Assembly: GCF_042453785.1 (NCBI RefSeq)
Contig: NC_091668.1
Coordinates: 1,433,501 to 1,497,500, forward strand
DNA from: Malus domestica
Lineage: Eukaryota; Streptophyta; Magnoliopsida; Rosales; Rosaceae
DNA length: 64,000 bases
Direction: 5' to 3'
In this document: piece by piece, positions 1,198 through 31,800 of the stretch
Layout: every line of letters starts with the position of its first letter
How positions within the stretch are numbered: the stretch's first letter is position 1
The notes under the pieces: model-generated
What the model was told of the DNA's origin: nothing
What the model saw: only the letters and a program-made list of their open reading frames with translations
Databases searched by the model: none
Program-made: the position numbers and the translations under genes

Positions 1198-2631
1198 GTT
1201 ATTTTATTTTATATTTTAAGAAAAAAGAAAGAAAGCAATGAAAAGCTGTACATAAAATAAATACAAAAAGGAATGAAATGAAGAAGAGTGGGAGACTAAC
1301 GTTTAATTTAAGATAAAGAAAGAAAGGTAATCGCACCACGACGGCGGCGACGTGGCGGTCATTTAACGGAAAATAACAGACAAATCAGCCTCCAGATCAA
1401 GTCTTGAAGCACAACTCTGAAAAATCGAGACTACCTACAGCTGAGCTCCGACCAACCGTTGATGGATGCAATCAGGAAGCTCAGAGATCAGGTCGCCAAG
1501 CAACAGCAGGTACTCCCTCTCGTTTGATTCCGAATTTGTATTTCTGTATGGATTTTGATATGAACATAATCTGCGTTGATTGCGAGATACTGAGATTGCT
1601 TAATGAAATAATATTTATATAATTATTCGAGTTGAATTGGATCGATTCGAATTCAAATAGAATTTCACTAATTCTGAGCTGTTTGGGGATGTGTTGGAGT
1701 GCAATGTTGATGAATTTCTGAAATTTTGAGCTAGGTGTTGCTAATTACTTATCGATTTTTGATGTAACTGGATGCTTAATTTTTACATTTTCGGAAAACT
1801 TGAAGCGAAAATGGCATATAATTCAACGTTCCATGCTTCATTAATGCATATGAGTTAGTCGAAGCTTTATCGAGTTTGCTTTTGATTATTTTGTGAACAC
1901 CGTCAGGCTGTGTTCAAACAATTTTCTGGTGGCATATATGGGGGATCGGATAATGTTGCCTCGGATGAAAATGAATTTCAACAGCATCAGAAACTCGAGA
2001 AGCTGTACATATCAACTCGTGCTGCCAAGGTTGCTACGCTTATTTTTGTCTGTGCTTTAAACGAGCATCACGTTAGTTGTGTTACCTATCGTTTTTTGCT
2101 TCTTCTTTAACAGCATTACCAAAAGGAAATTGTCCGCGGAGTGGAAGGTTACATTGTGGCCGGTTCAAAGCACGTTGAAATAGGTATGTTGCTTGAAATG
2201 CGTTGTCTTTTCTTGGGAGTTTGGATATGAATTCATGTTGGTTTTATCAGTTGGTATACATAATACTTTTTCAACAGGTACCAAGCTATCAGAAGATAGC
2301 AGGAAATATGGTTCTGAAAAGACTTGCACCGGTGGTAACACATTGTCGAGAGCTGCACTGAGTTTTGGAAGAGCTCGGGCCCAAATGGAAAGAGAGTGCG
2401 GAGTTCTACTGAAAGCCCTTGGCACACAGGTTTAAGTCAAATTATTACTATACAATGGCTCATTAAGTAAAAATCAAATATTGCCAGGGCCGGTTTCATA
2501 CAAATGGAATTTCAACCTACTAATTTTCGTGTGCATTTGATCATTTCGAAAGAAATTTACAGTAAAAATTGTTTCCATTTTCACGTGTGGTTCAAGAACT
2601 GGACTACTTTTTGTGTTATTATGCATCATAT

Positions 2632-2887: not shown

Positions 2888-3541
2888 TGTTAGGTTTTTG
2901 GCTCAAAATTAGGATGATGCAATAAATTAGGTTTCTGTTAACTATTTGGTTTTGGTGTTCTATTTGGGTTTGGTTTTGACTTCTTAGTTAGTTTCCTTGG
3001 TGGAGAGATTTTGTTAATTACCTATTTGATTTGGATTTGGATTTATTTCATATTAGGATTCTTATTGTAACCTAAGTCCTATGCACTATAAATAGGACCT
3101 TAGGGTTAGTGTATTTAGTGTGCTTCATCATGGTTTAGAGAGCTTTTCTCTATTTTGGTTTTGGGTGGAGGTCACCGTTTGGAGTCACGAGCGTGGCAAA
3201 TTCATGGCTCATTCGTTTGGCAAATTTGGTGAGAGTCAATTTGTGAGTTTGTGAGTTAGAAAGCAATTTGGGAGAATCTTCTCCGTTTGTTTTGAGTTCT
3301 CTACTCATTTGGTTTAGGGTTTGTAATTTGTGGGATTTAGGTTGTGAGAGTTTAAACACTCTTTTGTAATCTCCATTTGTTTAGTGAAATTCCTTGCCGT
3401 GCTTCGCCCGTGGAGTAGGCTTTACGCCGAACCACGTAAATCTCGTGTTAGTTTGAGATTGTTTGTTTTAGCTTTCACCTATGACGTTGATATTTGGTAC
3501 TTTGTTATAATTCGCTTCCGTTTGCGCATAAAAGTACAACA
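2888..3541 (+). repeat. 5' LTR of the copia-type element
   Basis: Begins tgttaggtttttggctc and ends aagtacaaca. It is nearly identical to 4136-4792, which implies fairly recent insertion. The primer-binding site starts 3 bp after its end. Confidence 0.95.
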
Positions 3542-3571
3542 AGTGGTATCAGAGCCCAGGTTTCGGCTTGG

Positions 3572-3850
3572 GCTTTGCTTAGCAGTCACTCTGAAGCCTT
3601 CTGTGTTGATATTGAAAAGTTCGAAGGTAATGACTTTGGTATTTGGCAATTGAAGATGCGTGCTTTGGTAGTTCAAGGAAGGAATAAGGAAAAGAGCAAA
3701 CTTGGAAAGAACACTTGTAGCTATTGTTATAAGGAAGGCCATTGGAAAGTAGATTGCCCTAAACTCAAGGGCAAAAACAAGCCGTTTGATAAGTCTTTTG
3801 CTAATGTTGATGCAAACATTGCAGAAGATCATTGTTCTGAACTCCTCTAA
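3572..3850 (+). pseudogene. gag remnant with CCHC zinc knuckle
   Basis: An open frame just after the primer-binding site encodes the copia gag start (EKFEGNDFGIWQLKMRAL). It then jumps to a zinc knuckle of the form C-x2-C-x4-H-x4-C (CSYCYKEGHWKVDC) followed by a short tail ending EDHCSELL. The central gag region that normally separates these parts is deleted. The product could at most be a small nucleic-acid-binding peptide. From about 3851 to the 3' LTR no polymerase domain is seen. Confidence 0.75.
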
Positions 3851-4135
3851 ATGTTATGTGAGGAGGTGGAGCTTGGTACTCAAGCTCTTTGGGTGGAGTG
3901 CAATTCACACTTTTTGTTCATATGTTCAAGCTTTTGCTTGGATTTTGTTTCGTATTTGTTAGTTTCCATAATGGAATTTGTTGGAGAAGGCATTGGAGGA
4001 AATTTCAAGTTTGAAGACTTTTGGATTTTTTGAGTCTAGGTGGAGATCAGTTTCAAAAGAATTTGGTGCACGTTTGCGTTTGTATTTTGGTATCCCAAAT
4101 TTGGAAGTTTGCTAATTTCTCGCCGAGGTGGAGAT

Positions 4136-4792
4136 TGTTAGGTTTTTGGCTCAAAATTAGGATGATGCAATAAATTAGGTTTCTGTTACCTATTTGGTTT
4201 TGGTGTCCTATTTGGGTTGGGTTTTGACTTTTTAGTTAGTTTCCTTGGTGGAGAGATTTGTTAATTACCTATTTGATTTGGATTTGGATTTATTTCCTAT
4301 TAGGATTCTTATTGTAACCTAAGTCCTATGCACTATAAATAGGACCTTAGGGTTAGTGTATTTAGTGTGCCTCATCATGGTTTAGAGAGCTTTTCTCTAT
4401 TTTGGTTTTGGGTGGAGGTCACCGTTTGAAGTCATGAGTGTGTGGCAAATTCATGGCTCATTCGTTTGGCAAATTTGGTGAGAGTCAATTTGTGAGTTTG
4501 TGAGTTGGAAAGCAATTTGGGAGAATCTTCTCCGTTTGTTTTGAGTTCTCTACTCTTTTGGTTTAGGGTTTGTAATTTGTGGGATTTAGGTTGTGAGAGT
4601 TTAAACACTCTTTTGCAATCTCCGTTTGTTTAGTGAAATTCCTTGCCGTGCTTTGCCCGTGAAGTAGGCTTTATGCCGAACCACGTAAATCTCTTGTGTT
4701 AGTTTGAGATTGTTTGTTTTAGCTTTCACCTATGACGTTGATATTTGGTACTTTGTTATAATTCGCTTCCGTTTGCGCATAAAAGTACAACA
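4136..4792 (+). repeat. 3' LTR of the copia-type element
   Basis: A second copy of the 2888-3541 repeat. Its terminal CA plus the first G of the target duplication forms the AG in front of SH3P2 exon 5 (4794), so the insertion recreated a splice acceptor. Confidence 0.95.
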
Positions 4793-6086
4793 GGTTGCAG
4801 AGCCTTTAAGAGCAATGATAGTGGGAACACCCTTGGAGGATGCTCGACATCTAACTCAACGATATGCTAGAATGCGGCAAGAAGCTGAAGCTCAGGTATA
4901 TGCAGTTTCTTCTGTTTCCTACCAATTTTATACTACAGTGATTTTACATGTTACATGGTGATCATACATTTCTCGGTTAACTTTTTTTGTTTTCTTTTAA
5001 AAGTGTTTGTTCATTTTGAGACAATCATGCATTGGTATTTATAGAGAACGCAAAATCTTAAGATGTTTAATGTAACTTGTTGAGATTGCTTCATTACTTG
5101 AAGCTTTGTTGTAATTTGGTTTTTGTTTTTTTTTTATTACTCCTTCAGATTTGTCTATATATACTAACTTGCACCGGGATAGGCTATAGATGTTTCCAGA
5201 CGCCAGGCCAAAGTACGGGATTCTGCAGGTAATGCTGACATTATCATGAAACTAGAAGCTGCTGAAGCCAAGCTTCAGGAGCTGCAGTCTAGCGTTGCAA
5301 TATTGGGAAAAGAAGCTAGTGCAGCTATGGCTGCTGTTGAAGGTCAACAACAAAGATTGACTCTTCAGCGGCTTCTTGCGATGGTAAAGGATTGCCTTCT
5401 CCTTTTTATTTAAGTGTTAAGACCTTGGCCTGTTCTAGTTACAAGACTGAAAAGGAAATTAATTTTGTAAATTTGTGATTTTTCGTCCCCATTCAAGGTT
5501 GAAGGAGAACGCAACTATCATCAGAACGTTCTTTAGATACTTGATCAGCTTGAAGGCGAGGTATGAAATATCCTAAAGTCTTCCTTTCAGCATGACAATT
5601 TCTTTTCCCAATTCATTTGGCTGTATATTATTCTAGTGTCTTGCTACTAAAAGCAGAGATCATTGACAGTATTTGTTGGGACAGATTTTATCAGAAAAGC
5701 AGCGAATTGAAGCATCGCATAGTCCGCCTACCGAGGACACTATGCCTCCACCACCATCTTATGAGGATCTCGGCCGTAGCTTTGCTTCTGAAACCTGTGA
5801 TGAATTGACAGAGTTGAGGGACTCTTCTCTTTCTTAGGAGAGGTATCTTTATGCTATTGTTGTTGTATCCAAGTTTTAGTCTGTTCGACTCTTTAGTTTC
5901 TAGTAACTGTTTCTTTTCGCCTACCGCAGGTTATTTACACCTTCCACGCTGTAACTGATGTGGAGTTAAGTTTGTCATTCGGGAATTACGTTGTCGTCCG
6001 GAAGGTTCTGTCGTCTTTCCTGCTTGCATGCTTTCATCTTATATTCATGTTCGGATTTATTTCTTTCGTATTGAGGTTAAATTTTC

Positions 6087-10790: not shown

Positions 10791-10938
10791 ATTTGTATAA
10801 TTACTTAACTTTTTACAATCATTTTCTTTACTTTGTATTTAATTCTTCTGTAGAATAACTTTATTATTTAGGTTCTCTTATTTTTATCAAAAAATAATTG
10901 TCTAATTTTAATGAAAAATAAATATAGGTACATTTAAG

Positions 10939-13900
10939 ATGTCAAGTAAACGTGATCCAGCTTGGGAACATGGAGACCCAATAGACGGAAACAAACATGG
11001 CACAATTTGCAAATATTGTGGTCGGGTAATGAAGAGTGGCGGAGTGACACGACTGAAGTATCATCTTAGTGGATTAGATCCATCAAAAAATGTCCAACGA
11101 TGCGATAATGTCCCCCCAGAAGTGAAGGCATTCATCAGCACATTATTAAAAAATAAAAAACAGCAGAAGGAAAAGATGACACAAGGAATGGAAAATATTC
11201 GAGCTGAGCTACGGGGAGAAGTCTATGGCCAAGCGGTTGACAGTGATGATGATGACGATGAGGACGAATGTGATGATGACATGGGACCTGAAGAACGACG
11301 CAGTTTGAAACAAGCATTACGTGCCTCCAAACAGTCAGCATGGGAAAGAGAACACCTTCATAAAATTCCTAATAGGGGACATGGTTCCGGGACAAGTGGT
11401 GGTGCACAAATGAGACGGGGAGGCAGTCTTAGAGAATCACAACCAACACCACCAATAGCCCCAAGTTTATATAAGTCATCCAACGCACGTCAAAAGAGTG
11501 TTTGGAGTTATTTCAAGGGAGGTAATGTGAAGGAGGGAATGGGGCGTCTAATTAGCAAGTTCTTTATCTATGAAAATGTCCCTGCTGCGAAGGCTTCATC
11601 ACATCATTTCAAAAATATGGTAGTGGGATGTCAACAGGCCGGTGTTGGAGTACAACCTCCCACTCCCTATGAGATAAGAAACAAATATTTGGATATGGAG
11701 TATAAACACATTGGCGAGTATGTTAACAAGTTGAGGTCAAAGTGGGAAACTAATGGTTGCACAATCATGTGTGACGGATGGACCGGCCCGACCAGATTAT
11801 CTATCATCAACTTCATGGTATATTCCAAGGGCAAGACAATTTTTTTGAAGTCTGTTGATGCTTCAGACCATATAAAGAATTACAAATATATTTACAAATT
11901 ATTGAGGGATGTAATCATGGAGGTGGGAGAGCATAATGTTGTCCAAGTCGTGACCGACAACGGTTCTGCATTTGTCAAAGCTGGAAAAAAGTTAATGAAG
12001 CATCATAATGTGTTTTGGACATCATGTGCAGCACATTGTATTGATCTTATGTTTGAGGCAATGGGGAAGAGAGAGAATGTTGCTACTGTGGTCAAAAGAG
12101 CTAGAACGATCACTAATTATATTTACAATCACGGTTGGTTGTTGGCAAAGATGCGTGAATTTTGCAGAGGAGAAATTATTCGTCCAGCTACCACTCGATT
12201 CGCCACCAACTATATTGCATTAAACAGCCTACTCAAGAAGAAAGCAGGGTTGAAACAACTATTCACCAGTGATGATTGGGCCAACCACAATTTTAGCCGC
12301 TCAAATACAGGTCGTTTGGTGGAAAGTATAGTGCTTGATCATGCTTTTTGGAGTCAAACAGAACATGTGTGTCAAGTGTTTGAACCTCTTTACAAAGTTT
12401 TACGGATCGTTGACACAGAAGTGTATTCTACTATGGGGGCTGTATATGAGTTGATGCGTGTAGTGAAGGATGAATTGGAAAGAAAACATGGTGCAAGGTG
12501 GGTCGTAAAAATAATTGAAGACCGATGGTATAAAACATTATACCACGATTTGCATGCAGCAGGTATAAATTATGTCATAATTTGCAATTCATTTCTTTAG
12601 TTGCATAAGTATTATTTATCTTATTAGAGTATGTGTTTCTTTGAACAGCATATTATTTGAATCCCCGATACCAATACAGACCCGGTGTTGGAGATGATGG
12701 TACCCTTATACGTGTTGTACATAATGTATACTCTAAATTAGACCCTGCATCACCAGCAGTTGGCCAATTTGGAAATGAGGTACACAATTACTTAAATTAT
12801 AATAATTACTTTGTTGGATTAAACTAACACAATTTATTGTATTCAGCTAACATGGTTTAAAGATGCAAGAAGAACATTTGGAGAACCAACATCAGTTGCT
12901 GCTCGAACAAATATGTCTCCTAGTGAGTATAAACATATTTCACTATAAGTTTATAATAGAATTTGTTGGAGTTATTAGGCTTATCAACATTATTTTTCAT
13001 TGTAGCTGAATGGTGGATCATGTATGGGACCGATGCACCAACTGTGAGAAAGTTAGCAATAAAAGTATTATCACAAACAGCTTCCTCATCAGCTTGTGAA
13101 AGAAATTGGAGCACATTTGCACTCATCCATACAAAGCAAAGAAATAAGTTGGCTCATAGTAGCTTGGAAAAATTAGTTTATTGCTACTACAACATGAAGC
13201 TTCAAATTCGAGATAAGGAAGCAGAAATCGATCATGTCGACCGTGGTGACCCACTAGATGTGTTTGATATTGTTGGTGAAGATGATGATACGGAGGGTAA
13301 CCAACTTTTTCAATGGATTAGACCTCTTCATTTAGATGATGATGAAGGCAACCCAGCTCCCAGAGTTGCTGAAGAAGCACGTAATGAAGGGATAAATGTA
13401 GAAAGAGTATTAGAGGAGGAGGTGGGATCTAGCAGCGCTGACTCTTTCGAAGAACTTTTGCACCCAATGCCAAGCAACACTGGAATTCCACCTTTTTCCA
13501 ATCCTACACAACCACAACATCGTGCTGATACTAATGATAGCTCTAGTACAAGATCAGGAGACTCACCTACCACCGGAGGTGGGAATGATGAAGGAAATAG
13601 TGGAGCTGGAGGTAGTGGAGCTGGAGGTAGTGGTGGTGGATATGGAAACTATTATGGACCGCCACCTCCCGGATATATGAGCCCCTTCACTGGTGAGGCA
13701 AACTTCACGCATGCAACACAAGATGATGACCATGGCAGTAGGCGGGCAGGACCAGGAATTGGTGCCATAGGGAAGGACTATACTCGCAGAGAAAGAGGCA
13801 AAGGGATTTTGTCAAGTCAAGAAGATGACTCGTTATCTAGAACTTCAGACTCTTTTGGATTGGGAAGTAGTAACTATGGTTATACTCATAACCAACCATT

Positions 13901-14027
13901 TCCCTACCCTTCATATCCCATTCCTGTTGGGATGGAATCGAGCGACTCATGGAATCAATCACAGCCTCAATCTTCAAATGATTTTTCTTATGGACAACCT
14001 CAACCAATCTCGGATCCATATGGGTAG
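10939..14027 (+). CDS. hAT transposase with BED zinc finger
   Basis: Four exons (10939-12562, 12649-12779, 12847-12922, 13006-14027) join in frame to 950 codons and a stop. The start ATG follows an acceptor at about 10928. Domains in order: an N-terminal BED zinc finger (about residues 5-60, ICKYCGRVMKSGG then a His-containing helix), an acidic linker, a DUF659-type RNase H-like region (about 230-420, including MCDGWTGPTRLS and VVTDNGSAFVKAG), a central helical region, and the hAT C-terminal dimerisation block (SSSACERNWSTFALIHTKQRNKL region in exon 4). A long Gly/Ser/Pro-rich tail follows. It would cut and paste hAT ends in the nucleus. There is no frameshift or stop, so it may be active. 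Product length and splicing are inferred from frame continuity. Confidence 0.92.
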
Positions 14028-15022: not shown

Positions 15023-15407
15023 CAATGGCGGAGCCAAGTTAAGGGCTGCCCTGGGCTGCAGCCCAGGTAGCTTGTGGTGAAAAATAAAATTTTACATGTA
15101 AATTAGATTGATTTTCGAATGTAGTCCACCAAATATTTAGTCGCTAATTCAAATTCTCTAGGTTTAACTATATAAAATTATATAATACACTTTGCAAACC
15201 ATCTCTTTTTCTTACATTATTTTTCTCATCGCTTCTTGTACATGTACAAATTTGGATTTGTTTAATTTTAACACGTTTTTGGCTCACCTTGTGAATTTTT
15301 TTAAGCTAACTGATACTATAAGAAATAGGGTATCAAGTTTCTTTATTTAAAAAGATTTAAAATTTTAAACTAGCCCACCCGGTAAAACATTACTAACTCC
15401 GCTATTG
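15023..15407. mobile_element. Non-autonomous hAT MITE
   Basis: A 385-bp element with the 8-bp target duplication atggtgat (15015-15022 and 15408-15415). Its terminal inverted repeats are caatggcggag on the left and caatagcggag as the reverse complement of the right end. There is no coding capacity. The ends differ from those of the 8132-14524 element, so a different hAT transposase probably moved it. Confidence 0.88.
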
Positions 15408-15548
15408 ATGGTGATATTGGAAACACTAGTTGGTGGGTTGATTGGTAGAAATGGTTCCAACAATTTAAAGATGAGAAATGAGTATTGAGCAATGATCAAA
15501 ATGTGTTGTACTTTATCAGAAAAGATCTTTGTGCAATCAAAAGTGCAT

Positions 15549-15838
15549 TTTATCACAAAAAGGTAACAACGATCAATATAATTGTTATTTATAAAATCAC
15601 ACATAAAATAAGAAGTAATCTTTTCTTTTTCTTTTCATCTCTGCCACTATGGGCCGACCATGACTTAAAGAAACGCTTTTTGGGTCAATGGATGGGAACG
15701 ACCCATTTTATAATTGTTTGTAAATTTTTCTGGAAGTAGATGGAAATGACCGAAGTACATATTTCCCCTGCTCACAGACATTTGCATTGCACCTAGCAAA
15801 AACCAGTTTTTTTGTTTGAACATCGATCCACATCAACG
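15549..15838 (+). repeat. Duplicated TNL 5' flank (upstream copy)
   Basis: From aatttttctggaag (about 15722) to cgatccacatcaa (15836) this repeats the DNA just upstream of the TNL start codon (16433-16549) with few changes. An outer piece (15549-15583) also matches 16402-16437. The copy breaks exactly where the TNL ATG would begin and continues instead into the SH3P2 fragment. Confidence 0.9.
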
Positions 15839-16405
15839 TTTAATTCAAGATAAAGAAAGGTAATCGCAACACGACGGCGGCGACGTGGCGGTCATTTAAC
15901 GGAAAATAACAGACAAATCAGCCTCCAGATCAAGTCTTGAAGCACAACTCTGAAAAATCGAGACTACCTACATCTGAGCTCCGACCAACCGCTGATGGAG
16001 GCAATCAGGAAGCTCAGAGATCAGGTCGCCAAGCAACAGCAGGTACTCTCTCTCTCTTGTTTGATTCCGAATTTGTATTTCTCAATGGAATTTTATATGA
16101 ACATAATCTGCGTTGATTGCGAGATACTGAGATTGCTTAATGAAATAATATTTATATAATTGTTCGTGTTGAATTGGATCGATTCGAATTCGAATAGAAT
16201 TTCACTATTTCTGAGCTGTGTTGGAGTGCAGTGTTGCCGAATTTCTGAAATTTTGAGCTAGGTGTTGCTAATTACTTATCCATTTTTGGATTTAATTGGA
16301 TGCTTAATTTTTACATTTTCGGAAAACTTCAAGCAAAAATGGTATATGATTTTTATCATAAAAAGAGTTAGTCGAAGCTTTATCGAGTTTGCTTTTGATT
16401 ATTTT
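15836..16405 (+). pseudogene. SH3P2: SH3P2 5' fragment (copy C): leader, exon 1, part of intron 1
   Basis: This matches the 5' leader, exon 1 and intron 1 of copies A and B, beginning at aacgtttaattcaag. Exon 1 is 15995-16042 and encodes [16 protein letters not shown], with Asp2 changed to Glu, followed by an intact GT donor. Similarity stops in intron 1 at gattatttt (about 16405). There the sequence passes directly into the TNL 5' flank. No later SH3P2 exons exist here. It is not a gene by itself, but it could act as a promoter, leader or alternative first exon for the TNL gene 140 bp downstream. Confidence 0.9.
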
Positions 16406-16547
16406 ATCATAAAAAGATGAGCAACGATCTATATAATTTTTCTGGAAGTTGATGGAAATGACCCAATTACATATTTCCCCTCCTCACAGACATTTGCATT
16501 GCACCTAGCAAACACCAGTTTTTTTGTTTGAACATCGATCCACATCA

Positions 16548-19500
16548 ATGGCTCTTGTGAGAACATCTCCAGGAACCTCCTCTGATTCCAACACTTTTCG
16601 GAGTTATTGCTACGACGTGTTCTTGAGCTTCAGAGGGGAAGAAACTCGCAAGACTTTTACCGACCACCTCTACACAGCCTTGAACAACGCAGGATTTCTT
16701 ACGTTCCGAGACGACGATGAACTTGAGAGAGGAGAATATATAAAGCCAGGACTGCAGAAAGCGATCCAGCAGTCACGAACTTCTGTTGTCGTGTTTTCGA
16801 AAGATTACGCGTCATCCAGTTGGTGTCTTGATGAGCTTGTGCTGATCCTTGAACGCAAGAGGACCACCTCGGACCATGTAGTTTTACCAGTCTTCTACGA
16901 TGTCGATCCGTCCCACGTGAGGAAGCAGACAGGAAGTGTTGGAAAAGCATTTGCTAGAAGCCAGAAAAATCAGTCGCCGGAAAAGGTGCAGGGATGGAGG
17001 AAGGCACTTGCAGAGATTGCAGACCTAGCAGGCATGGTCTTACAAAATCAAGCTGATGGGTAACTTTCATTATCTCCATTTCTCATCTCTTTCCTGGGTG
17101 AATTTGATGTATGATCCGTAGTGACCTAGATTTTTATATGTTTATTAATTCAATCTCAGTAGTGAATAATAATCTCAATTTAGGTCAACTTAAAGAAATC
17201 ACACTCAACTCAACTTAAGGATTAGTCATTTTCCATGTTAATCTACTGGTTTCAGTTGCTTAAATTTTTTTGAAAGCTGGTGTGGAAAAAAGTTAGGATT
17301 TGATATGTCATGTATTTGTCTATAGTTCGTATAAATTATGCGCACTATTCCTTTCTTTTTTTTCAATTTAATTTTGTCAGCAGTCCTTTTTTTTTTTTCT
17401 TATTTAAATAAAGGCAATCAACATATGTTTGAAGGGAATTTTAACGAAAAACCACATTTTTACACTAAAAAGTCAATCATGATACTATTCACTTTACCCT
17501 TTATTTTGTAATTATCTAATTTTCCCAATTCATTTTTTGTTTTGTTTGCAAATTCTTAGGTACGAGTCAACGTTTATCAAAAACATTATTAAAGTGATAG
17601 GAGACAAGTTAAGTCGCACGCCATTGAGTGTTGAACCAAAATTGATTGGAATTCAATCTCAAGCCGAACGCATCAATTTGTGGTTCCAAGATGGATCAAG
17701 TGATGTTGGTATATTTGTTGTGTATGGCATGTCTGGAATCGGGAAGACAACCATTGCAAAACATGTTTACAATTCAAACTTTGGAAGCTTTCAAGGAAGT
17801 AGTTTCATTGAAAATATCAAGGAAACAGCAGATCGACCAAATGGCTTAGTTCAAATACAAATGCAACTTCTTTGTGATATTTTGAACGGCAGAGAAGTGA
17901 AAATACACAGTGTTAGTGAGGGAATAATTAAGATTGAAAGGGCCATAAGCTCTAAAAGAGTTCTACTTGTTCTTGATGATGTTGACCATATGGACCAATT
18001 AGATGCAATCCTAAGGATGAAAGATCAGTTTTATCCTGGAAGTAAGATACTAATAACAACTAGGTGTGAAAGGTTGTTAAAGGCAGATCAAGTTACAGAG
18101 GTGCACAGAGTTCAAACTTTGGATGACAATGAATCATTAAAGCTTTTCAGTTGGCATGCTTTTGGCCAGGACCATCCCATAGAAGAATACATGGAGCACT
18201 CAAAACAGCTAGTGCAACATAGCGGCGGACTTCCATTAGCTCTAAAAGTTTTGGGTTCTTCTTTATCAGGAGGACGTATAGGTGTATGGGAAAGTGCATT
18301 GGAGAAGCTAAAAGTTATTCCTGATGGTGAAATCATGAGTAAACTAAGAATAAGCTATGAAAGTTTAAAAGATGACCATGACCGGAAATTATTCCTCCAC
18401 ATTGCTTGTTTCCTAATAGGAAGGAACAAAAGTTACATTGTTAGAATATTCGATGGATGTGATTTCTATACAATCATTGGCATTCAAAATCTCATTGATA
18501 GATGCTTGGTGACACTTGATGAATACGGCAAGGTGAACATGCATGACTTGATTCGTGCTATGGGAAGAGAAATTGTTCGCCAAGAATCAGAAGAGCCTGA
18601 GAAACGTAGTAGATTATGGCGCCATAAGGATTCTTTCCAAGTATTGAGGAAAAAGAATGTAAGAAACATGTCTTTTATGTCTATATATGTATTTCTTCTT
18701 GTGAAAATTACGCATATTAATGTCTCTATTGTTTCCTTTAGGGTACAAAAAAAATCCAAGGTCTTTTCCTGGATATGCGTAACCATCCTGCAAACAATCC
18801 AATAAACACAAATGAGATAGTCTTGGAAACCAATGCATTTGCAAGGATGCGCAATTTACAACTACTCCATCTTAGTCATGTACGATTGGATGGATGTTAT
18901 GTAGATTTCCCTACAGGATTAAGATGGTTGTGTTGGCTTGAATTTCCTTTGGATTCTATACCAATTGATTTTCCTTTGGAGAACGTAATTGTTCTTGAAA
19001 TGCAATACAGTAGCTTGAGACAAGTATACAAAGGAACAAAAGTATGTTACTCTATGCATTTCAATTCATTTTCCTTATTTTGTTAGTTTTTTATTTGTGG
19101 ACTAACTCCATGTGTTAAAATGAACTATTATGTTTTCTTTAATTCGATAACTAATTTCTTATGTTAGACACTTATTTCATTGTTCTTTTTTTTTTTCTTT
19201 TTTCTTTTTCCTTTGTTTCCACAGTTTCTTCCATCGTTGAAGATCCTTGACGTCAGCCATTCTCATGGCCTTAGTGAAACCATTGACTTCTCACTTTCCC
19301 CCAATCTAGAGGAACTGATTCTTGTAGATTGCACAAGCCTGAAGAATGTTCATGAATCCATTGGAAACCTGGAGAGACTCGTGTACTTGAATTTGAAGGA
19401 TTGCAAGAATCTTAGGATGCTTCCGAAGAACATGTGCATGCTTAAATCACTTGAAACACTCATTTTATCTGGTTGCTTAAATCTTGATGAGTTTCCAGTG

Positions 19501-19941
19501 GAGATGATGAAGAAGATGGAGTCTCTGAAAGTTCTTGAGACGGATGGAATTCCAATAGGTGAATTGTGGCCAAAAAGAAGTTCAACTATCTTGAGTTCTT
19601 TTCCGTGCTCTTTGGTAGAGTTAAGTCTGAAGGGGTGCAATCTTTCTGATGATGTCTTTTCTACGGATTTAAGTGCTCTATCCTACTTGCGAAGACTACA
19701 TTTGGATGCGAATCCAATTTGCAGTCTGCCAGTTTTCATCAAAGGTTTGAGGAGGATCGATGAACTCTCTTTCAAGGGTTGTGATAGGCTCGAATCGCTT
19801 GTGGGGTTGCCGGAAGTACACCAAAGGCTAAGTATAAAAGAATGCATATCATTAAAAAAAATAACTTTTCATTCCCCTGGGCCACATTATCTAACACGTG
19901 TATTTTGCGATGACAACCGGAATCTTGTTGAGTGTGAGTGA
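16548..19941 (+). CDS. TIR-NBS-LRR immune receptor, truncated by an in-frame TGA
   Basis: Exons 16548-17059, 17560-18658, 18742-19041 and 19225-19941 join in frame to 875 codons plus TGA. The chosen ATG gives MALVRTSPGTSS just before the TIR domain. TIR spans about residues 18-165 (YDVFLSFRGEETR; SSWCLDEL with Glu96 at the position of the NADase catalytic residue). NB-ARC begins near 172 with P-loop GMSGIGKTT (about 227), kinase-2 LLVLDDVD (about 306), GLPLALK (about 394) and MHDL (about 498). Leucine-rich repeats follow from about 560. Members of this family sense pathogen effectors and signal through TIR NADase activity. The TGA at 19939-19941 cuts off the post-LRR domain, whose exons remain open downstream. 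A GTGAGT donor overlapping the stop (19934) would not restore the frame with the next exon. Confidence 0.9.
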
Positions 19942-21094
19942 TATTACAAGTTAGAGCCTATTGATAGAGTTGATGTGGAAATGATCAAACTTTTGGGCTT
20001 GTGCAACTTGGAATCCATGCCAGCTGTTCGAATGCATCATCCACTCACAAACTGGGATCTAATAGAGGTCCCCGTCCAGGTGCGCCTCTTTTTCTCTCTC
20101 TCATAAGTCGTAAATATATAATGGGAAAGAAATGACTGAGTAATGTTGTGATGACTGTGGCAAATACATAGGGACTGTATCAACATGGTATATTCAGCAC
20201 CTTTTTTGTTGGGAATGAGGTTCCAGGCCTGTTCAGCTATAAAAGTACCAAGTCCTCGATATCTTTTATTGTCCCTTTACTACTTGCTAGTCACAGAATT
20301 CGAGGCTTGAACATCTTTGCTACCTATGCAAAGGAAAATTCAAATAATTATTCTACTAGACCTAATATTGGTCCAATAATGATCAAAGTGAGAAACAAGA
20401 GTAAGGGTCTGAAGTGGATCTATGACCCATTTTTCTATGGAATCCCAAGTGACGGAGAAGATATGATATGGTTGAGCCATTGGAAGATGGAGAATAAAAC
20501 AATATTACAATGTGGAGATGAAGTGGTGGTTTCGGTAATAACTGGACCACGTGACATGTTTTGGGTCAAGGAGTTTGGTGTCGAGCTTGTGCAAGAGCAC
20601 CAAGACAAGATGAGTACCCAACACAACACCAAATCTGATCCTAATTATCCATTTGTTATTGATGGAGATTTGAAGATGTTTGAGGACAGACCGGGAAAAT
20701 ACTTCCTTGGCAGTTATTTTATAGAAGAAATTGATGACATTGATATCCTCACCATGGACTCTGATGAAGAAGACACAAGTATGTTGTGTTGTTGTATTGC
20801 ATTGAATTATACTTCATCCAAACACTTCCAGGTGTGTCCGTATTCATTTCAAAAACGTTTCCAATAAATTTTATGTTATTTGTATGTTTTTCAGACAAAG
20901 AAGGGCAAGAGGATGAACCTGATTACACAATTGCAAAGACGAGGGCTGCTAGCAATAACTACAGCCTGAGAGGCTGGAAGGTGCGCCTCACAACTGTCGG
21001 CTTCTTTTTTGCGCTTGCTCTAGTAGGTTGGTCCTCATCTCCCAAAAAAAGAAGCGACAATCGTCCACAAGCCCACCATGAGTTTGTAATTTGA
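19942..21094 (+). pseudogene. Cut-off C-terminal (post-LRR) part of the TNL gene
   Basis: After the TGA the same frame stays open to 20079 (YYKLEPIDRVDVEMIKLLGL...). It continues through good splice sites in 20172-20778 and 20895-21094, ending QAHHEFVI and a stop. With the TGA read as sense the gene would have 1190 residues. The region matches the C-JID/post-LRR domain of TNLs and ends with a hydrophobic segment (LTTVGFFFALALVGW) that may be a membrane helix. Preservation of all phases suggests that the nonsense change is recent or that readthrough or another allele matters. Trp is the likely ancestral residue at the TGA, from family recall. Confidence 0.8.
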
Positions 21095-21728: not shown

Positions 21729-22862
21729 ACAATAATTCACTGTATAAATCGTTTTTTCAACTTTAAAGTGTGGCTTAAAAAGAAGCTTTAAACAAGTAGC
21801 AATAATTTCATATTGAAAAATAAAACCTATTTCATGGATATTACAAGAGCCATTATTTTGAAAAACACACCTTTTGGTTCTTCACTGCTTGACTTTTAAG
21901 AAGATCTTCGTCCTTGTGACGATTCAAATTCTTTAAAATATCTCTACGACGGAATAAACAAAACCAATCTAGGCCAAAATTGACTTGTTCGATTTGATTA
22001 TGTTCACTGATTTTTCTGTTCACATGTTTACCCCTACTTGCCATATAGTTTTGGGGTGTTAGTGCATAGTGCTCTTCTCTTTACACACCAGTTTCAATTT
22101 TATTCTTCGTAAATTAAGAGACCGTTTGATAATCATTTCGTTTTCAATTTAAAAAATATAAAAAACTAAATGAAGTTTTCAACTAGAATTTTCGCTTTTG
22201 GTTTTCAATTTTAATTTTTTTTAAAACAACTGAAAACTAAAAATAGTTACAAAAAGAATTTTTCATTTTTTTTTAATTTACAAAAAAGTAAAAACTGAAA
22301 ACTCTAAACTATAGACTAAAAATTAAAAAGTGAAATCGAAATGGGCTCTCAACAAAATTTAAAAAAGACTGGGCTGAATTACTGAATTCAAAGCAGGGCT
22401 TATTAACGTTACGAGGCCCAATGGATCTGGATAAATATTTTTCATTTTTTTTTAACAAACGATATTATTTATATAGGCTTAATTTTACAGTGGGCTAACA
22501 ATAATGTGGTTCAAATTTGCTTTTCGCAAGAATCGAACCTAAAACTTCTCACTTATAAATGGAGAGGAATACCATTAAACCGTAGTCCTGATAGGTTCGT
22601 TATTTTATTTTATATTTTAAGAAAAAAGAAAGAAAGCAATGAAAAGCTGTACATAAAATAAATACAAAAAGGAATGAAATGAAGAAGAGTGGGAGACTAA
22701 CGTTTAATTCAAGATAAAGAAAGAAAGGTGATCGCACCACGACGGCGGCGACGTGGCGGTCATTTAACGGAAAATAACAGACAAATCAGCCTCCAGATCA
22801 AATCTTGAAGCACAACTCTGAAAAATCGAGACTACCTACAGCTGAGCTCCGACCAACCGTTG

Positions 22863-25800
22863 ATGGATGCAATCAGGAAGCTCAGAGATCAGGTCGCCAA
22901 GCAACAGCAGGTACTCCCTCTCGTTTGATTCCGAATTTGTATTTCTGTATGGATTTTGATATGAACATAATCTGCGTTGATTGCGAGATACTGAGATTAC
23001 TTAATGAAATAATATTTATATAATTGTTCGAGTTGAATTGGATCGATTCGAATTCAAATAGAATGTCACTATTTCTGAGCTGTTTGGGGATGTGTTGGAG
23101 TGCAATGTTGATGAATTTCTGAAATTTTGAGCTAGGTGTTGCTAATTACTTATCGATTTTGATGTAATTGGATGCTTAATTTTTACATTTTCGGAAAACT
23201 TCAAGCGAAAATGGCATATAATTCAACGTTCTATGCTTCATTAATGCATAAGAGTTGGTCGAAGCTTGATCGAGTTTGCTTTTGGTTATTTTGTGAACAC
23301 CGTCAGGCTGTGTTCAAACAATTTTCTGGTGGCATATATGGGGGATCGGATAATGTTGCCTCGGATGAAAATGAATTTCAACAGCATCAGAAACTCGAGA
23401 AGCTGTACATATCAACTCGTGCTGCCAAGGTTGCTACGCTTATTTTTGTCTGTGCTTTAAACGAGCATCACGTTAGTTGTGTTACCTATCGTTTTTTTGC
23501 TTCATCTTTAACAGCATTACCAAAAGGAAATTGTCCGCGGAGTGGAAGGTTACATTGTGGCCGGTTCAAAGCACGTTGAAATAGGTATGTTGCTTGAAAT
23601 GCGTTGTCTTTTCTTGGGAGTTTGGATATGAATTCATGTTGGTTTTATCAGTTGGTATACATAATACTTTTTCAACAGGTACCAAGCTATCAGAAGATAG
23701 CAGGAAATATGGTTCTGAAAAGACTTGCACCAGTGGTAGCACATTGTCGAGAGCTGCACTGAGTTTTGGAAGAGCTCGGGCCCAAATGGAAAAAGAGTGC
23801 GGAGTTCTACTTAAAGCCCTTGGCACACAGGTTTAAGTCAAATTATTACTAACAATGGCTCATTAAGTAAAAATCAAATATTGACAGGGCCGGCTTCATA
23901 CAAATGGAATTTCAACTGACTAATTTTCGTGTGCATTTGATCATTTCGAAAGAAATTTACAGTAAAAATTGTTCCCATTTTCACGTGTGGTTCAAGAACT
24001 GGACTACTTTTTGTGTTATTATGCATCATATGACAAACTGGTTCACCATTTCTTTCTATAGGTTTGCATAATAACTCTTTCTGTGCTTATCAATTTGCCT
24101 GTGTAGGTTGCAGAGCCTTTAAGAGCAATGATAGTGGGAGCGCCCTTGGAGGATGCTCGACATCTTGCTCAACGATATGCTAGAATGCGGCAAGAAGCTG
24201 AAGCTCAGGTATATGCAGTTTCTTCTGTTTCCTACCAATTTTGTACTACAGTGATTTTACATGTTACATGGTGATCATACATTTCTCGGTTAACTTTTTT
24301 TGTTTTCTTTTAAAAGTGTTTGTTCATTTTGAGACAATCATACATTGGTATTCATACAACAACAACAACAACAACAACAACAAAGCCTTTTCCCACTAAG
24401 TGGGGTCGGCTATATGAATCCTAGAACGCCATTGCGCTCGGTTTTGTGTCATGTCCTCCGTTAGATCCAAGTACTCTAAGTCTTTTCTTAGAGTCTCTTC
24501 CAAAGTTGTCCTAGGTCTTCCTCTACCCCTTCGGCCCTGAACCTCTGTCCCGTAGTCACATCTTCGAACCGGAGCGTCAGTCGGCCTTCTTTGCACATGT
24601 TCAAAATCACCGGAGCCGATTTTCTCTCATCTTTCCTACAATTTCGGCTACTCCTACTTTACCTCGGATATCCTCATTCCCAATCTTATCCTTTCTCGTG
24701 TGCCCACACATCCCACGAAGCATCCTCATCTCCGCTACACCCATTTTGTGTACGTGTTGATGCTTCACCACCCAACATTCTGTGCCATACAACATCGCTA
24801 GCCTTATTGCCGTCCTATAAAATTTTCCCTTGAGCTTCAGTGGCCTACGACGGTCACACAACACGCCGGATGCACTCTTTCCATCCAGCTCGTATTCTAT
24901 GGTTGAGATCTCCATCTAATTCTCCGTTCTCTTGCAAGATAGATCCTAGGTAGCGAAAACGATCGCTTTTTGTGATCTTCGCTAGATTGCTCCGGTCATT
25001 AGTGTGGATAAGTATATAAATGGATAGAGATAGGAAAGCAAACACAAGATGTACGTGGTTCACCCAGATTGGCTACGTCCACGGAATAGAAGAGTTCTCA
25101 TTAATTGTGAAGGGTTTACACAAGTACATAGGTTCAAGCTCTCATTTAGTGAGTACAAGTGAATGATTTAGTACAAATGACATTAGGAAATATTGTGGGA
25201 GAATGATCTCGTAATCACGAAACTTCTAAGTATCGGAGTGTGGTGTCGTCTTGACTTGCCTTATCTGTCTCATAGGTAGATGTGGCATCTTCTCTGGAAG
25301 TACTCTTCCTCCATCCAGGGGTGGTATCTTTAACTGGTGGAGATGCACAAGGTAATGTATCAATTTCACTTGAAGCTTACTTGTAGTTTCAGGCTTGGTC
25401 AAGCGCGATACAAACCATGTAGTAGGAGTCCCCCAAGTCGCCGAGCTAGGGGGTCTGCTGAAAGAGGTGACAGACAAGGTAAGCAATCAGAGCTCCGACT
25501 GATTGTTCACCTTCTCCCCATCTTGCAGCAGCATGAAGGATAAAGAGAAGAAAAATGAGAAGAGATGATATGAGATACTTTTGCTTTTGAAGAAGTAACT
25601 TTCCACAGGCTTATTCTTGAACTGAGCTGGAGGGTTTTCTGGTTTCCTCCAAAGTATAAGGCCGACTGAAGAATTTGAGGGTCAAAACAAGTCCATCAAA
25701 TCTAGAGTACGTTCCACCCTGCTGATATGGGATACTTTTGCTTTTGACAGAGTAATGAATGTATCGGCACGTGTGCTGTTACGCTTGTCTCCACATGCTT

Positions 25801-28800
25801 CCTTGTATCCTTCGCACTTGCCCTATCTGTTCCTCAAGCAGATGCGGAATCTTCCCTGGAAACATAAGATGTTGAAGATGAGTACTCGAGAGCAATGCCA
25901 GGTAAGTAATCAGGTAAGGGGTTCCAGGCAGTCAGTTCCTGGCTGGAAGCTTGATTCCAAGTGCTGACTGATTGCTCTCTTTCTCCTTGTCTTGCAGGTA
26001 AAAACAAGGCCAAAAGAAAAGACAGGGAAAAAGCATGATATGGGATACTCTTGCTTTTAACCCTGATGATATGAGATATTCTTGCTCTAGTATAGCTTGT
26101 TTGCAGAGGTATTATCGGGGGGAAAGAAAGCTGAATATTTCGAAAGGCTTCGTTGGGAGTGCCCTCTCAGATATGATGAAGGGTTGAGCATTTTTGCAGG
26201 TCTGCCTGTCCGTTGGGGATGGAGGTCGACATATATAGGAGTCTCCCTAACAACAAGTAGTAATGCTATTCCTTTACCCTGCTTGGTCATAGCACGGTAG
26301 TGGGAGCTGCCAGTTTCACATGTTTTAACTCTGTCAGAGCACTTTGAAAAAGTGGTCTGTGGTATCTGGCTCTCGAGATTCGGAGAACGATGCCTCTTCG
26401 ATTTTTGAGAAAGCAATCATGCTGGGTGTATGACTCTCGAGATTCGGAGAGCAGTGTCTCTTCGATTTTTGAGGAAGTAATCATGTTGGGAGTCTGGCTC
26501 TCGAGATTCGGAGGGTGGTGCCTCTTCGATTTTGGAGCAAGCAATCTTGTTGGGAGTGTTGTCTCGAATGTGAGTAAAGGTTGGGCATGTTTGCTAGTCT
26601 ACCTTGCCACGAAGCACAAAGGTTGACACACAGGGACTTTCCAATTATCCAGCAATGGTACTGTTCCTTTACCCTCTCTTCGATTTTGAGAAAGTAGTCA
26701 TGTTGGGAGTCTGGCTCTTGAGATTCGGAGGACGGTGCCTCTTCGATTTTGGAGCAAGCAATCTTATTGGGAGTGTTTTCTCGAATGTGAGTAAAGGTTG
26801 GGCATGTTTGCTAGTCTACCTTGCCACGAAGCACAGAGGTTGACACACAGGGACTTTCCAATTATCCAGCAGTGGTACTGTTCCTTTACAGTTGTGGGTA
26901 ATAATATGGTAGCTAGACCTTCAAAATTTATGTGTCTAAACTTTTGTTAGTGCTGTTTCTTTGCTATTCTTTTACCTTTCTTGGTCAGAGCGATGTAGTG
27001 GGAGCTGCAAGCTTCACGTGCTCAACTTTGGCAGAGAACTTTGGCAAAGTTATTTGTGGTACCCATGAGCTATTGTTGCGTGTGGGAAGTGGGTGATTGA
27101 ACAGTAAGATTCATGTGCTTTCTACTTCACCAGAAGTCTTCGACAGAATGCCCATAATTTCTGCAAAGCTGAGTGTGCGTGTGACAGGTGTTGACAAGGC
27201 TAGAAAAGTAGGTGCCTCTTCGATTTCTGAGATCGGCCCTCGTGGTCTCTGAGCAGCCCAGCTTTTGAGAAAGCGAGCGCCTCTTCGATTGATTCGGAGA
27301 ACGATGCCTCATCGATTTTTGAGAAAGCAATCATGCTGGGGGTCTGGCTCTCGAGATTCGGGGAGCAGTGTCTCTTCGATTTTTGAGAAAGTAATCATGT
27401 TGGGAGTCTGGCTCTCGAGATTCGGAGGGCGGTGCCTCTTCGATTTTGGAGCAAGCAATCTTGTTGGGAGTGTTTTCTCGAATGTGAGTAAAGGTTGGGC
27501 ATGTTTGCTAGTCTACCTTGCCACGAAGCACAGAGGTTGACACACAGGGACTTTCCAATTATCCAGCAATGGTACTGTTCCTTTACCCTCTCTTCGATTT
27601 TTAAGAAAGTAGTCATGTTGGGAGTCTGGCTCTCGAGATTCGGAGGACGGTGCCTCTTCGATTTTGGAGCAAGCAATCTTATTGGGAGTGTTTTCTCGAA
27701 TGTGAGTAAAGGTTGGGCATGTTTGCTAGTCTACCTTGCCACGAAGCACAGAGGTTGACACACAGGGACTTTCCAATTATCCAGCAGTGGTACTGTTCCT
27801 TTACCCTTGTGGGTAATAATATGGTAGCTAGACCTTCAAAATTTATGGGTCTAAACTTTGTTAGTGCTGTTTCTTTGCTATTCTTTTACCCTTCTTGGTC
27901 AGAGCGATGTAGTGGGAGCTGCAAGCTTCACGTGCTCAACTTTGGCAGAGAACTTTGGCAAAGTTATCTGTGGTACCCATGAGCTATTGTTGCGTGTGGG
28001 AAGTGGGTGATTGAACAGTAAGATTCATGTGTTTTCTACTTCCCCAGAAGTCTTTGACAGAATGCCCATAATTTCCGCAAAACTGAGTGTGCGTGTGACA
28101 GGTGCTGACAAGGCTGGAAAAGGCTGGAAAAGTAGGTGCCTCTTCGATTTCTGATATCGGCCCTCGTGATCTCTGGGGAGCCCAGCTTTTGAGAAAGCGA
28201 GCGCCTCTTCGTTTTTTGAGATCGGCCTTCGTGGTCTTTGAGCAGCCCAACTTTTGAGAAAGCAAACGCCTCTTCGATTTCTGAGATCAACCCTCGTGAT
28301 CTCTAAGCAGCCCAGCTTTTGAGAAAGCAAACGCCTCTTCGATTTCTGAGCAGGCGCCTCTTCGATTTCTGAAGCTTCGTCGAGTGCAGATTTTTATAGG
28401 GACTGGCATTAAGTTCCAAAGCACACTTGAATCTCCACCAGTAGAAGCTTCATTCTTGCACTTCTAAGATCTTGATTTGTCCGACCTCTTCTCTCTTCAA
28501 CACCTTTGAAAATGTCTGGCCCCTCCGACCGTCGTTTTGACTTGAACCTTGTTGAAGAGGCAGCCCCGCCTTCTCCAGACAACATATGGCGCCCATCCTT
28601 CGTCTCCCCTACTGGTCCTCTTACCGTTGGGGATTCCGTGATGAAGAATGATATGACCGCTGCGGTGGTGGCCAGGAACCTTCTCACTCCCAAAGATAAC
28701 AGACTACTTTCCAAACGATCTGATGAGTTAGCTGTTAAGGATTCGCTGGCTCTCAGTGTTCAGTGTGCAGGTTCTGTGTCTAATATGGCCCAACGCCTAT

Positions 28801-31800
28801 TTGCTCGAACCCACCAAGTTGAATCATTGGCGGCTGAAGTGATGAGTCTCAAACAGGAGATTAGAGGGCTCAAGCATGAGAATAAACAGTTGCACCGGCT
28901 CGCACATGACTATGCTACAAACATGAAGAGGAAGCTTGACCAGATGAAGGAAACTGATGGTCAGGTTTTACTTGATCATCAGAGATTTGTGGGTTTGTTC
29001 CAAAGGCATTTATTGCCTTCGTCTTCTGGGGCTGTACCGCGTAATGAAGCTCCAAATGATCAACCTCTGATGCCTCCTCCTTCTAGGGTTCTGTCCAGTA
29101 CTGAGGCTCCAAATGATCCCCCTCCGGTGCCTTCTCTTTCTGGGGCTCTACCGACTGCTGAGACTTCTCCTAAGCAACCTTTGTGAAGGCTCCCTCTTGT
29201 GTGCTTATTTTGACTCATGTATATGTACATATTTGTAGCTTATCGGGGATATCAATAAATAAGCTTTCCTTCATTTCAACGTATTGTGTTAAATACACCA
29301 AAGCCTTCTTCGCTAAGTTCTTTGAATTTTCTTTTGTTAAAGCTTGTATGTTGAAGCTTTCTGAGTGGAGCATGTAGGTTGGGGTAGTGTTCTCTTAATT
29401 TCCCGAATGAGGAAAACTTCTCGGTTGGAGACTTGGAAAATCCAAGTCACTGAGTGGGATCGGCTATATGAATCTTAGAACGCCATTGTGCTCGATCCTG
29501 TGTCATGTCCTTCGTTAGATCCAAGTACTCTAAGTCTTTTCTTAGAGTCTCTTCCAAAGTTTTCCTAGGTCTTCCTCTACCCCTTCGGCCCTGAACCTCT
29601 GTCCCATAGTCGCATCTTCTAATCGGAACGTCAGTAGGCCTTCTTTGCACATGTCCAAACCACCGTAACCGATTTTCTCTCATCTTTCCTTCAATTTCGG
29701 CTACTCCTACTTTACCTCGAATATCCTCATTCCTAATCTTATCCTTTCTCGTGTGCCCACACATCCAACGAAGCATCCTCATCTCCGCTACACCCATTTT
29801 GTGTACGTGTTGATGTTTCACCGCCCAACATTCTGTGCCATACAGCATCGCCGGCCTTATTGCCGTCCTATAAAATTTTCCCTTCAGCTTCAGTGGCATA
29901 CGGCGGTCACACAACACGCCGGATGCACTCTTCCACTTCATCCATCCAGCTTGTATTCTGTGGTTGAGATCTCCATCTAATTCTCCGTTCTTTTGCAAGA
30001 TAGATCCTAGGTAACGAAAACGGTCGCTCTTTGGTATTTCTTGATCTCCGATCCTCACCCCTAACTCGTTTTGGCCTCCATTTGCACTGAACTTGCACTC
30101 CATATATTCTGTCTTTGATCGGCTTAGGCGAAGACCTTTAGATTCCAACACTTCTCTCCAAAGGTTAAGCTTTGCATTTACCCCTTCCTGAGTTTCATCT
30201 ATCAACACTATATCGTCTGCGAAAAGCATACACCAAGGAATATCATCTTGAATATGTCGTGTTAACTCATCCATTACCAACGCAAAAAGGTAAGGACTTA
30301 AGGATGAGCCTTGATGTAATCCTACAGTTATGGGAAAGCTTTCGGTTTGTCCTTCATGAGTTCTTACGGCAGTCTTTGCTCCTTCATACATATCCTTTAT
30401 AGCTTGGATATATGTTACTCGTACTCCTTTCTTCTCTAAAATCCTCCAAATAATGTCTCTTGGGACCCTATCATATGCTTTTTCCAAATCTATAAAGACC
30501 ATGTGTAAATCCTTTTTCCCATCTCTATATCTTTCCATCAATCTTCGTAAGAGATAGATTGCCTCCATGGTTGAGCGCCCTGGCATGAACCCGAATTGGT
30601 TGTCCGAAACCCGTGTCTCTTGCCTCAATCTATGCTCAATGACTCTCTCCCAGAGCTTCATTGTATGACTCATTAGCTTAATACCCCTATAGTTCATGCA
30701 ATTTTGTACGTCGCCCTTATTCTTGTAGATAGGCACCAAAGTGCTCATTCGCCACTCATTTGGCATCTTCTTCGTTTTCAAAATCCTATTGAAAAGGTCA
30801 GTGAGCCATGTTATACCTGTCTCTCCCAAAAGTTTCCAAACTTCGATTGGTATATCGTCTGGGCCTATTGCTTTTTTATGCTTCATCTTCTTCAAAGCTA
30901 CAACCACTTCTTCCTTCCGGATTCGACGATAAAAAGAGTAGTTTCTACACTCTTCTGAGTTACTCAACTCCCCTAAAGAAGCACTCATTTCATGTCCTTC
31001 ATTGAAAAGATTATGAAAATAACCTCTCCATCTGTCTTTAACCGCGTTCTCTGTAGCAAGAACCTTTCCATCCTCATCCTTGATGCACCTCACTTGGTTT
31101 AGGTCCCTTGTCTTCTTTTCCCTTGCTCTAGATAGTTTATAGATATCCAACTCTCCTTCTTTGGTATCTAGTCGTTTATACATATCGTCGTAAGCCGCTA
31201 ACTATACATTGGTATTCATAGAGAACGCAAAATCTTAAGATGTTTAATGTAACTTGTTGAGATTGCTTCATTACTTGAAGCTTTGTTGTAATTTGGTTTT
31301 TGTTTTTTTTTTATTACTCCTTCAGATTTGTCTATATATACTAACTTGCACCGGGATAGGCTATAGATGTTTCCAGACGCCAGGCCAAAGTACGGGATTC
31401 TGCAGGTAATGCTGATATTATCATGAAACTAGAAGCTGCTGAAGCCAAGCTTCAGGAGCTGCAGTCTAGCGTTGCAATATTGGGAAAAGAAGCTAGTGCA
31501 GCTATGGCTGCTGTTGAAGGTCAACAACAAAGATTGACTCTTCAGCGGCTTCTTGCGATGGTAAAGGATTGCCTCCCCTTTTTGTTTAAGTATTAAGACC
31601 TTGGCCTGTTCTAGTTACAAGACTGAAAAGGAAATTAATTTTGTAAATTTGTCATTTTTCGTCCCCATTCAAGGTGGAAGCAGAGCGCAACTATCATCAG
31701 AACGTACTTCAGATACTTGATCAGCTTGAAGGCGAGGTATGAAATATCCTAAAGTCTTCCTTTCAGCAAGACAATTTCCTTTCCCAAATCATTTGGCTGC

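Follow-up and report, generated by a model that had tools for sequence, protein, structure and literature searches.

The DNA immediately upstream of the TNL resistance gene in the window, by which the whole analysed stretch of 64,000 nucleotides of the Malus domestica genome is meant (C8:1433501-1497500), carries the leader, the first exon and nearly the entire first intron of an SH3P2 gene between two copies of the TNL upstream flank. This chimeric region is an old, microhomology-joined rearrangement in an alternating TNL/SH3P2 array, and it is probably to be explained by two deletions in a TNL-SH3P2-TNL stretch, a reading to which a probability of roughly 0.55 is assigned from the sequence.

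Structure of the chimeric region and of the array

The DNA before the TNL ATG is present twice, at positions 15723-15836 and 16435-16548 of the window (114 nt, 95.6% identity, spacing 712, E 2.5e-46). Repeat search and self-comparison agree on this duplication, which had been described in the initial annotation; the homology begins further upstream than was given there, since 15548-15579 aligns with 16402-16434, and identity extends through the A of the TNL ATG (16548-16550). Flank 1 (15548-15836, + strand) is a long form that ends at the A of a former ATG. Flank 2 (16402-16547, + strand) is a short form lacking about 143 bp (15580-15722), a stretch which is found in flank 1 and in the TNL copy T1, and partly in T4. 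In T1, the flank (C8:1349356-1349645) runs as an unbroken 289 bp straight into the gene's own ATG and is 94.1% identical to flank 1 over 289 nt; by this comparison, it is taken to represent the undisrupted state of the TNL upstream region.

The SH3P2 fragment between the flanks, termed C (C5 in the window; 15836-16405, + strand), consists of leader, exon 1 and intron 1 minus its last 14 nt, as judged from alignment to the SH3P2 copies. The stretch 15835-16405 matches window positions 1298-1892 and 22699-23292 with 89.5% identity over 600 columns, or about 95% over ungapped columns. The donor genes are presumably SH3P2, as their exon peptides, read by eye (16 residues, followed by AVFKQF...), fit Arabidopsis SH3P2. 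The coding part of exon 1 (15995-16042, + strand) starts with the ATG at 15995, comprises 48 nt for 16 residues and ends in phase 0 with the donor CAG/GTACTC. Intron 1 of SH3P2 ends with ...ATTTTGTGAACACCGTCAG before exon 2, and only the last 14 nt, acceptor included, are lacking in fragment C. An intron piece had thus been recognized correctly, but calling it "part of intron 1" understated its extent, as nearly all of the intron is present by alignment. The alignments also agree with the earlier description of a 5' SH3P2 fragment with an intact donor, lying about 0.5 kb upstream of the TNL ATG between duplicated TNL leaders.

At the 5' join (15835-15836), flank sequence ...CCACATCAA, ending in CATCAA, meets SH3P2 sequence AACGTTTAATT... 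(CTAACG), and AA is common to both; the same join is found at C8:1385002. At the 3' join (16401-16405), SH3P2 sequence ...GATTATTTT meets flank sequence ATTTTATCA... with ATTTT in common. The string catcaa, formerly read as shared between flank and SH3P2, is instead the end of both flank copies; it is AA and ATTTT that the joins share.

The window covers part of an array that comprises five copies of TNL and four of SH3P2, all on the + strand, in which each TNL stands before its SH3P2 partner: T1 (C8:1349645) and E (C8:1358560), T2 (C8:1372200) and D (C8:1379108), T3 (C8:1385737), after which two SH3P2 queries gave no match, T4 (C8:1398997) and A (C8:1434799), and T5, the TNL of the window (C8:1450048), and B (C8:1456200). 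The genome searched comprised 19 contigs and 651 Mb, and C8:1340001-1433500 was mapped with array pieces; the SH3P2 mapping query was the first 1.3 kb of each gene, and A, B, D and E are counted as copies, not as intact genes. As a whole, the alternating tandem array spans C8:1349356-1457531, the part in the window being 1299-24031.

A genome search with window positions 15700-16560 returned 41 matches. Two of these span the whole query, namely the window itself and C8:1384864-1385749, where the 861-bp stretch recurs at full length with 95% identity; the other 39 are the four C8 SH3P2 copies, the two best SH3P2 matches on C15 and 33 shorter flank or SH3P2 matches. The unit of flank 1, fragment C and flank 2 occurs in two of the five TNL copies, T3 and T5. 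The second unit is located 64 kb upstream of that in the window, before T3, and base-level alignment gives both joins as identical. The region being a repetitive array, collapsed or mis-joined tandem repeats have to be considered as a source of the pattern, and an artefactual flank duplication had been named at the outset as something that would overturn the finding. The likelihood of this is nevertheless close to nil: both joins and the 143-bp loss are common to two places separated by 64 kb, whose sequences nonetheless show 10/564 differences in C and 2/146 in flank 2, and such a second, diverged unit with identical joins speaks against an artefact.

In a genome search with the TIR exon, for which 40 of 131 candidates were scored, five of the 40 matches listed fall in the array, the nearest others among them being on C7, C15 and C13. 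C8 and C15 are presumed to be homoeologous. Within 80 kb of C15 that contain two copies and an additional fragment of SH3P2, no TNL match was obtained either on the DNA level or by tblastn with TIR and NB (1e-5), and the 20 kb preceding the array on C8 gave none either. We infer that a TNL would have joined the SH3P2 locus on C8 and that the pair was multiplied afterwards.

Origin of the chimeric region

The proposed pathway would start from a stretch TNL-x/SH3P2-y/TNL-z in the array. One deletion would fuse the TNL-x leader to the SH3P2-y leader, with a loss of about 9 kb as estimated from the T1-E spacing, and the other would join the TNL-z upstream region to the terminal part of SH3P2 intron 1, with a loss of about 4 kb as estimated from the E-T2 spacing. 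Flank 1, SH3P2 exon 1 and intron 1, flank 2, and TNL-z would be left over, and duplication or gene conversion would then have carried the product to a second unit, giving T3 and T5. Because TNL, SH3P2 and TNL follow each other on one strand, two deletions yield exactly the order of flank, SH3P2 fragment and flank. It is this fit of the gene order, together with flanks that differ from each other as much as the flanks of different TNLs do, for which two deletions are favoured. An intact TNL-x/SH3P2-y unit of the postulated kind was not found in the array. The fragment had originally been described as "wedged" into the TNL promoter; such an insertion is doubtful, two deletions fitting at least equally well.

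A possible, though less probable, course would be a single repair event, in which a break at the TNL ATG was followed by copying of about 570 bp of the neighbouring SH3P2 gene and a switch back to the TNL flank on another template, whereby the flank was doubled. The joins and their microhomologies are equally expected from such an event, which also predicts that the divergence between the flanks (4.4-6.2%) be similar to that between C and SH3P2 (4.4-5.5%), as it is. In the flank tree, uniting flanks 1 and 2 as one clade costs no likelihood (p-AU 0.169), and neither this grouping nor that of flank 2 with T1 (p-AU 0.232) is rejected, while the mosaic nature of the array weakens any tree. Against one event stands that the two flanks are no nearer to each other than to T1 or T4. 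Over 113 columns, 5-7 differences are counted between flanks 1 and 2, 3-4 between flank 2 and T1, and 4-5 between flank 1 and T1; over 112 columns, T4 differs from flank 1 by 5-6 and from flank 2 by 4-6. The mean distance between the flanks minus the mean distance to T1/T4 has a median of 0.019 with a 95% range from -0.003 to 0.043, and is below 0 in 5.0% of 2000 column resamples, which is not decisive. The 16-mer TTTTATCATAAAAAGA, which occurs at the 3' join (16402-16417) and a second time at 16351-16366 (+ strand), where it replaces the normal intron sequence, was once taken for a template-switch scar of the founding event. This was abandoned, as the sister fragment C3 before T3 retains the normal intron at that site; by this comparison, the inner copy is a younger, local change in C5 alone and has no bearing on the founding event.

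Capture by a Pack-MULE, Helitron or hAT transposon, which would have carried the SH3P2 piece into the TNL promoter, is brought to mind by hAT transposase domains at 10915-14027 and by a hAT-like MITE at 15023-15407, yet it is very unlikely. A repeat search (length at least 30 nt) detected no inverted repeat of that size at the ends of 15836-16405; the joins share 2 and 5 bases as opposed to a target duplication of 8-9 bp, the repeat flanking the fragment measures 114 to about 290 bp, and the joins before T3 are identical. Neither terminal inverted repeats of at least 30 nt nor a target-site duplication of fixed size, as would be expected of gene capture, are seen at the joins. The short MITE-like element itself, located upstream of flank 1, has the ends CAATGGCGGAG... 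and ...CTCCGCTATTG, which form an imperfect inverted repeat, and ATGGTGAT is directly repeated on both of its sides; its assignment to the hAT type is presumed from this 8-bp repeat and from general hAT features.

The subsequent history of the unit may be traced from the differences between its copies. C3 and C5 have both joins and many changes in common, and at least 10 sites distinguish the two from the four SH3P2 genes, by which sequencing reads could be assigned. When sites are polarized against C15, C keeps the C15 state at 4 sites at which A, B, D and E have one derived state, 10 sites are derived in C, and 3 are unpolarized, in a count that leaves out columns with a gap in any row as well as the last 76 columns. 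By this count, C branched off from SH3P2 prior to the divergence of A, B, D and E; in the SH3P2 tree, C is placed without support for any one position, its stem being lengthened by included junction columns. The tree of the TIR and NB exons has T3 and T5 as sisters (97/96), and kinship in the LRR and post-LRR exons is mosaic, T3 going with T1 and T5 with T2. Between T3 and T5, the coding exons for TIR (9/512 differences) and NB (15/1101) are close as well, unlike that for LRR (54/838). In addition to the values for C and flank 2 given above, 3/113 differences are found in the last part of flank 1, 22/422 (5.2%) in TNL intron 1 and 10/135 (7.4%) in the 135 bp that precede flank 1. C and flank 2 together (12/710) thus differ less than intron 1 and the upstream stretch (32/557; Fisher p 1.4e-4). 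The history which T3 and T5 have in common in the chimeric tract seems to be younger than that of its surroundings, and the smaller number of differences suggests gene conversion between the units.

No substitution separates T3 from T5 over the 298 positions of C that were compared (15863-16162, including one 2-column gap). Selective constraint on the fragment was considered and dismissed, as C has already changed at 9-12 of about 296 sites over the same stretch in comparison to the SH3P2 genes. The identity of the two copies would reflect recent gene conversion or duplication rather than selection.

Integrity of the TNL genes and predicted transcripts

According to its Pfam domains, T5 is a TNL with TIR, NB-ARC and LRR exons in order, all on the + strand. 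Exon 1 (16548-17059, 512 nt, donor G/GTAAC) encodes the TIR domain (E 1.4e-50), and exon 2 (limits approximately 17560-18660) the NB-ARC (E 2.3e-28) and winged-helix (WHD_ROQ1, 6.1e-20) domains. Exon 3 (approximately 18742-19040) has an open frame in T1, T2, T3 and T5, and was read over only 245 nt in T4. The LRR exon 4 (approximately 19226-20078, aligned by eye; LRR_14, 1.2e-11) contains an in-frame TGA (19939-19941) at a position that is Cys in the remaining four copies of the array. The frame of T5 is consequently not open through the post-LRR exon 5 (approximately 20172-20780), which lies behind the stop and is itself stop-free in all five copies; its comparison with solved structures gave no match at E 1. 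The T5 copy looks broken, and its TIR exon has, in addition, an Arg-to-Cys and an Arg-to-Ser change where T1, T3 and T4 have Arg.

All five exons are open in both T1 and T3. In T2, a one-base length change shifts the frame of the TIR exon. T4 has exon 3 in two pieces that are 9 kb apart, a broken first LRR exon ahead of a full one, and about 5.5 kb between the parts of its flank. The flank upstream of T2 was also found interrupted, with about 8.2 kb inserted at C8:1363904-1372123 and TTACATATTT on both sides, and flank pieces are repeated at 1363181-1363696. Of the two copies with a chimeric upstream region, only T3 is stop-free in every exon read, whereas T5 has its stop before the last exon; any consequence of the fragment would therefore be likelier to matter for T3.

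Fragment C includes 159 bp ahead of the SH3P2 ATG. A block that is kept at four C8 and two C15 copies, 0.6-0.7 kb upstream of the leader, lies outside the fragment; for copy A, it corresponds to C8:1434076-1434218, with about 79% identity to C15:1067327-1067473 and 1115853-1115999. As this conserved block was left behind, at most a core promoter and the leader would be retained in the fragment, and the promoter and expression control initially proposed for the TNL are putative. The block at C8:1434076-1434218 may represent either a promoter element or a more ancient repeat. The notion of a conservation edge coinciding with the 5' end of the fragment was rejected: conservation weakens just inside that end in comparison to C15:1116585, but C15:1067870 aligns from about 100 bp further upstream. 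The motif TATATAA is found in flank 2 (16430-16436 in T5), where 118 bp separate it from the TNL ATG in both T5 and T3, and the intron part of C5 also carries it, at 16153. T1 and both copies of flank 1 have only one TATAAAA, 246-248 bp from the flank end, and the part of the T4 flank that was read has neither motif.

From the position of TATATAA in flank 2, it is expected that the TNL would mostly still be started from there. The SH3P2 leader may serve as the origin of a minority of transcripts, in which the SH3P2 ATG would act as an upstream start and lower TNL translation; the effect of such transcripts on translation is likely to be weak or negative. If unspliced, they would open a frame of 54 codons from the SH3P2 ATG in T5 and of 39 in T3. 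Potential acceptors in the TNL leader are ranked by the plant splice consensus. Splicing from 16042 to the pyrimidine-rich candidate TTTCCCCTCCTCACAG/ACA at 16489 would result in 29 codons and a stop 16 nt before the TNL ATG, and splicing to the candidate TTTGCATTGCACCTAG/CAA at 16508 in an in-frame TNL with 29 additional residues, the first 16 of which are from SH3P2; the latter frame is open in T3 and T5. That transcription of T3, and possibly of T5, would begin in the SH3P2 leader, with the donor at 16042 being spliced to the TNL leader and the acceptor at 16508 providing the 29-residue extension, is nonetheless improbable. A chimeric protein formed by skipping of the TIR exon was discarded, because the phase 0 in which SH3P2 exon 1 ends (48 nt) does not agree with the phase 2 required by TNL exon 2 (TNL exon 1 having 512 nt), so that this splice would be out of frame. 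Sixteen SH3P2 residues would presumably be too few for a decoy domain.

Relation to known systems and further elements

RPP7 is reportedly an NLR gene whose expression is altered by COPIA-R7, and the same is said of rice Pit and Renovator. As in these cases, foreign DNA is found here beside an immune-receptor gene and could alter its expression; they differ in involving a retrotransposon with a reported effect, whereas the present DNA is a fragment of a host gene whose effect is putative. The COPIA-R7 insertion of Arabidopsis is mentioned in PMC7529245. In a 379-kb region of maize, breakage, non-homologous end-joining and recombination are described as changing gene structure (PMC2686159), and the apple fragment is different from that region in its position ahead of a TNL, within an array where TNL and SH3P2 alternate, and in being present in two units. 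Peach TNL genes are reported with TIR, NB, NLL, LRR and post-LRR exons (PMC4851768). The five exons of T5 follow this order, an intron likewise separating the LRR exon from the post-LRR exon; T5 departs from the peach genes by its stop before the post-LRR exon and by the SH3P2 fragment upstream.

SH3P2 has been studied in clathrin-mediated endocytosis (PMC11112126), and the Xanthomonas effector XopL is reported to degrade it (PMC9251887). As a reported XopL target, SH3P2 makes a TNL under an SH3P2 leader of interest, and the neighbourhood of the two genes is suggestive; co-amplification of an effector target with immune receptors may deserve a look. A literature search for at least two of SH3P2, TNL and apple had no paper containing SH3P2 among the matches listed, and one for SH3P2 and Malus gave no title about TNL. 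The array provides a clear natural example in which immune receptors were amplified along with an unrelated resident gene, and in which rearrangement has placed the first exon and intron of this gene before two of the receptors. If T3 is indeed expressed from the fragment, it would illustrate how the host genes next to an NLR array can supply it with new leaders, no transposon being involved; if it is not, the fragment would be a scar of array turnover that is ordered relative to other events and usable as a haplotype marker.

Several further elements were observed in the window. Long open frames with zf-BED, DUF659 and hAT dimerization domains at 10915-14027, about 2.5 kb upstream of the TNL, form a hAT transposase-like gene. 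At SH3P2 copy A, an element at 2888-4804 has direct terminal repeats of about 670 bp (96% identity), and 49429-49593 is an inverted copy of a 165-bp stretch at 2633-2797. SH3P2 copy B appears to be split by a long insertion (24357-31203) with a reverse-transcriptase frame on the minus strand (29450-31201), and 26264-28372 is densely filled with nested tandem repeats, among them a duplication of about 0.9 kb (26377-27290/27291-28214).
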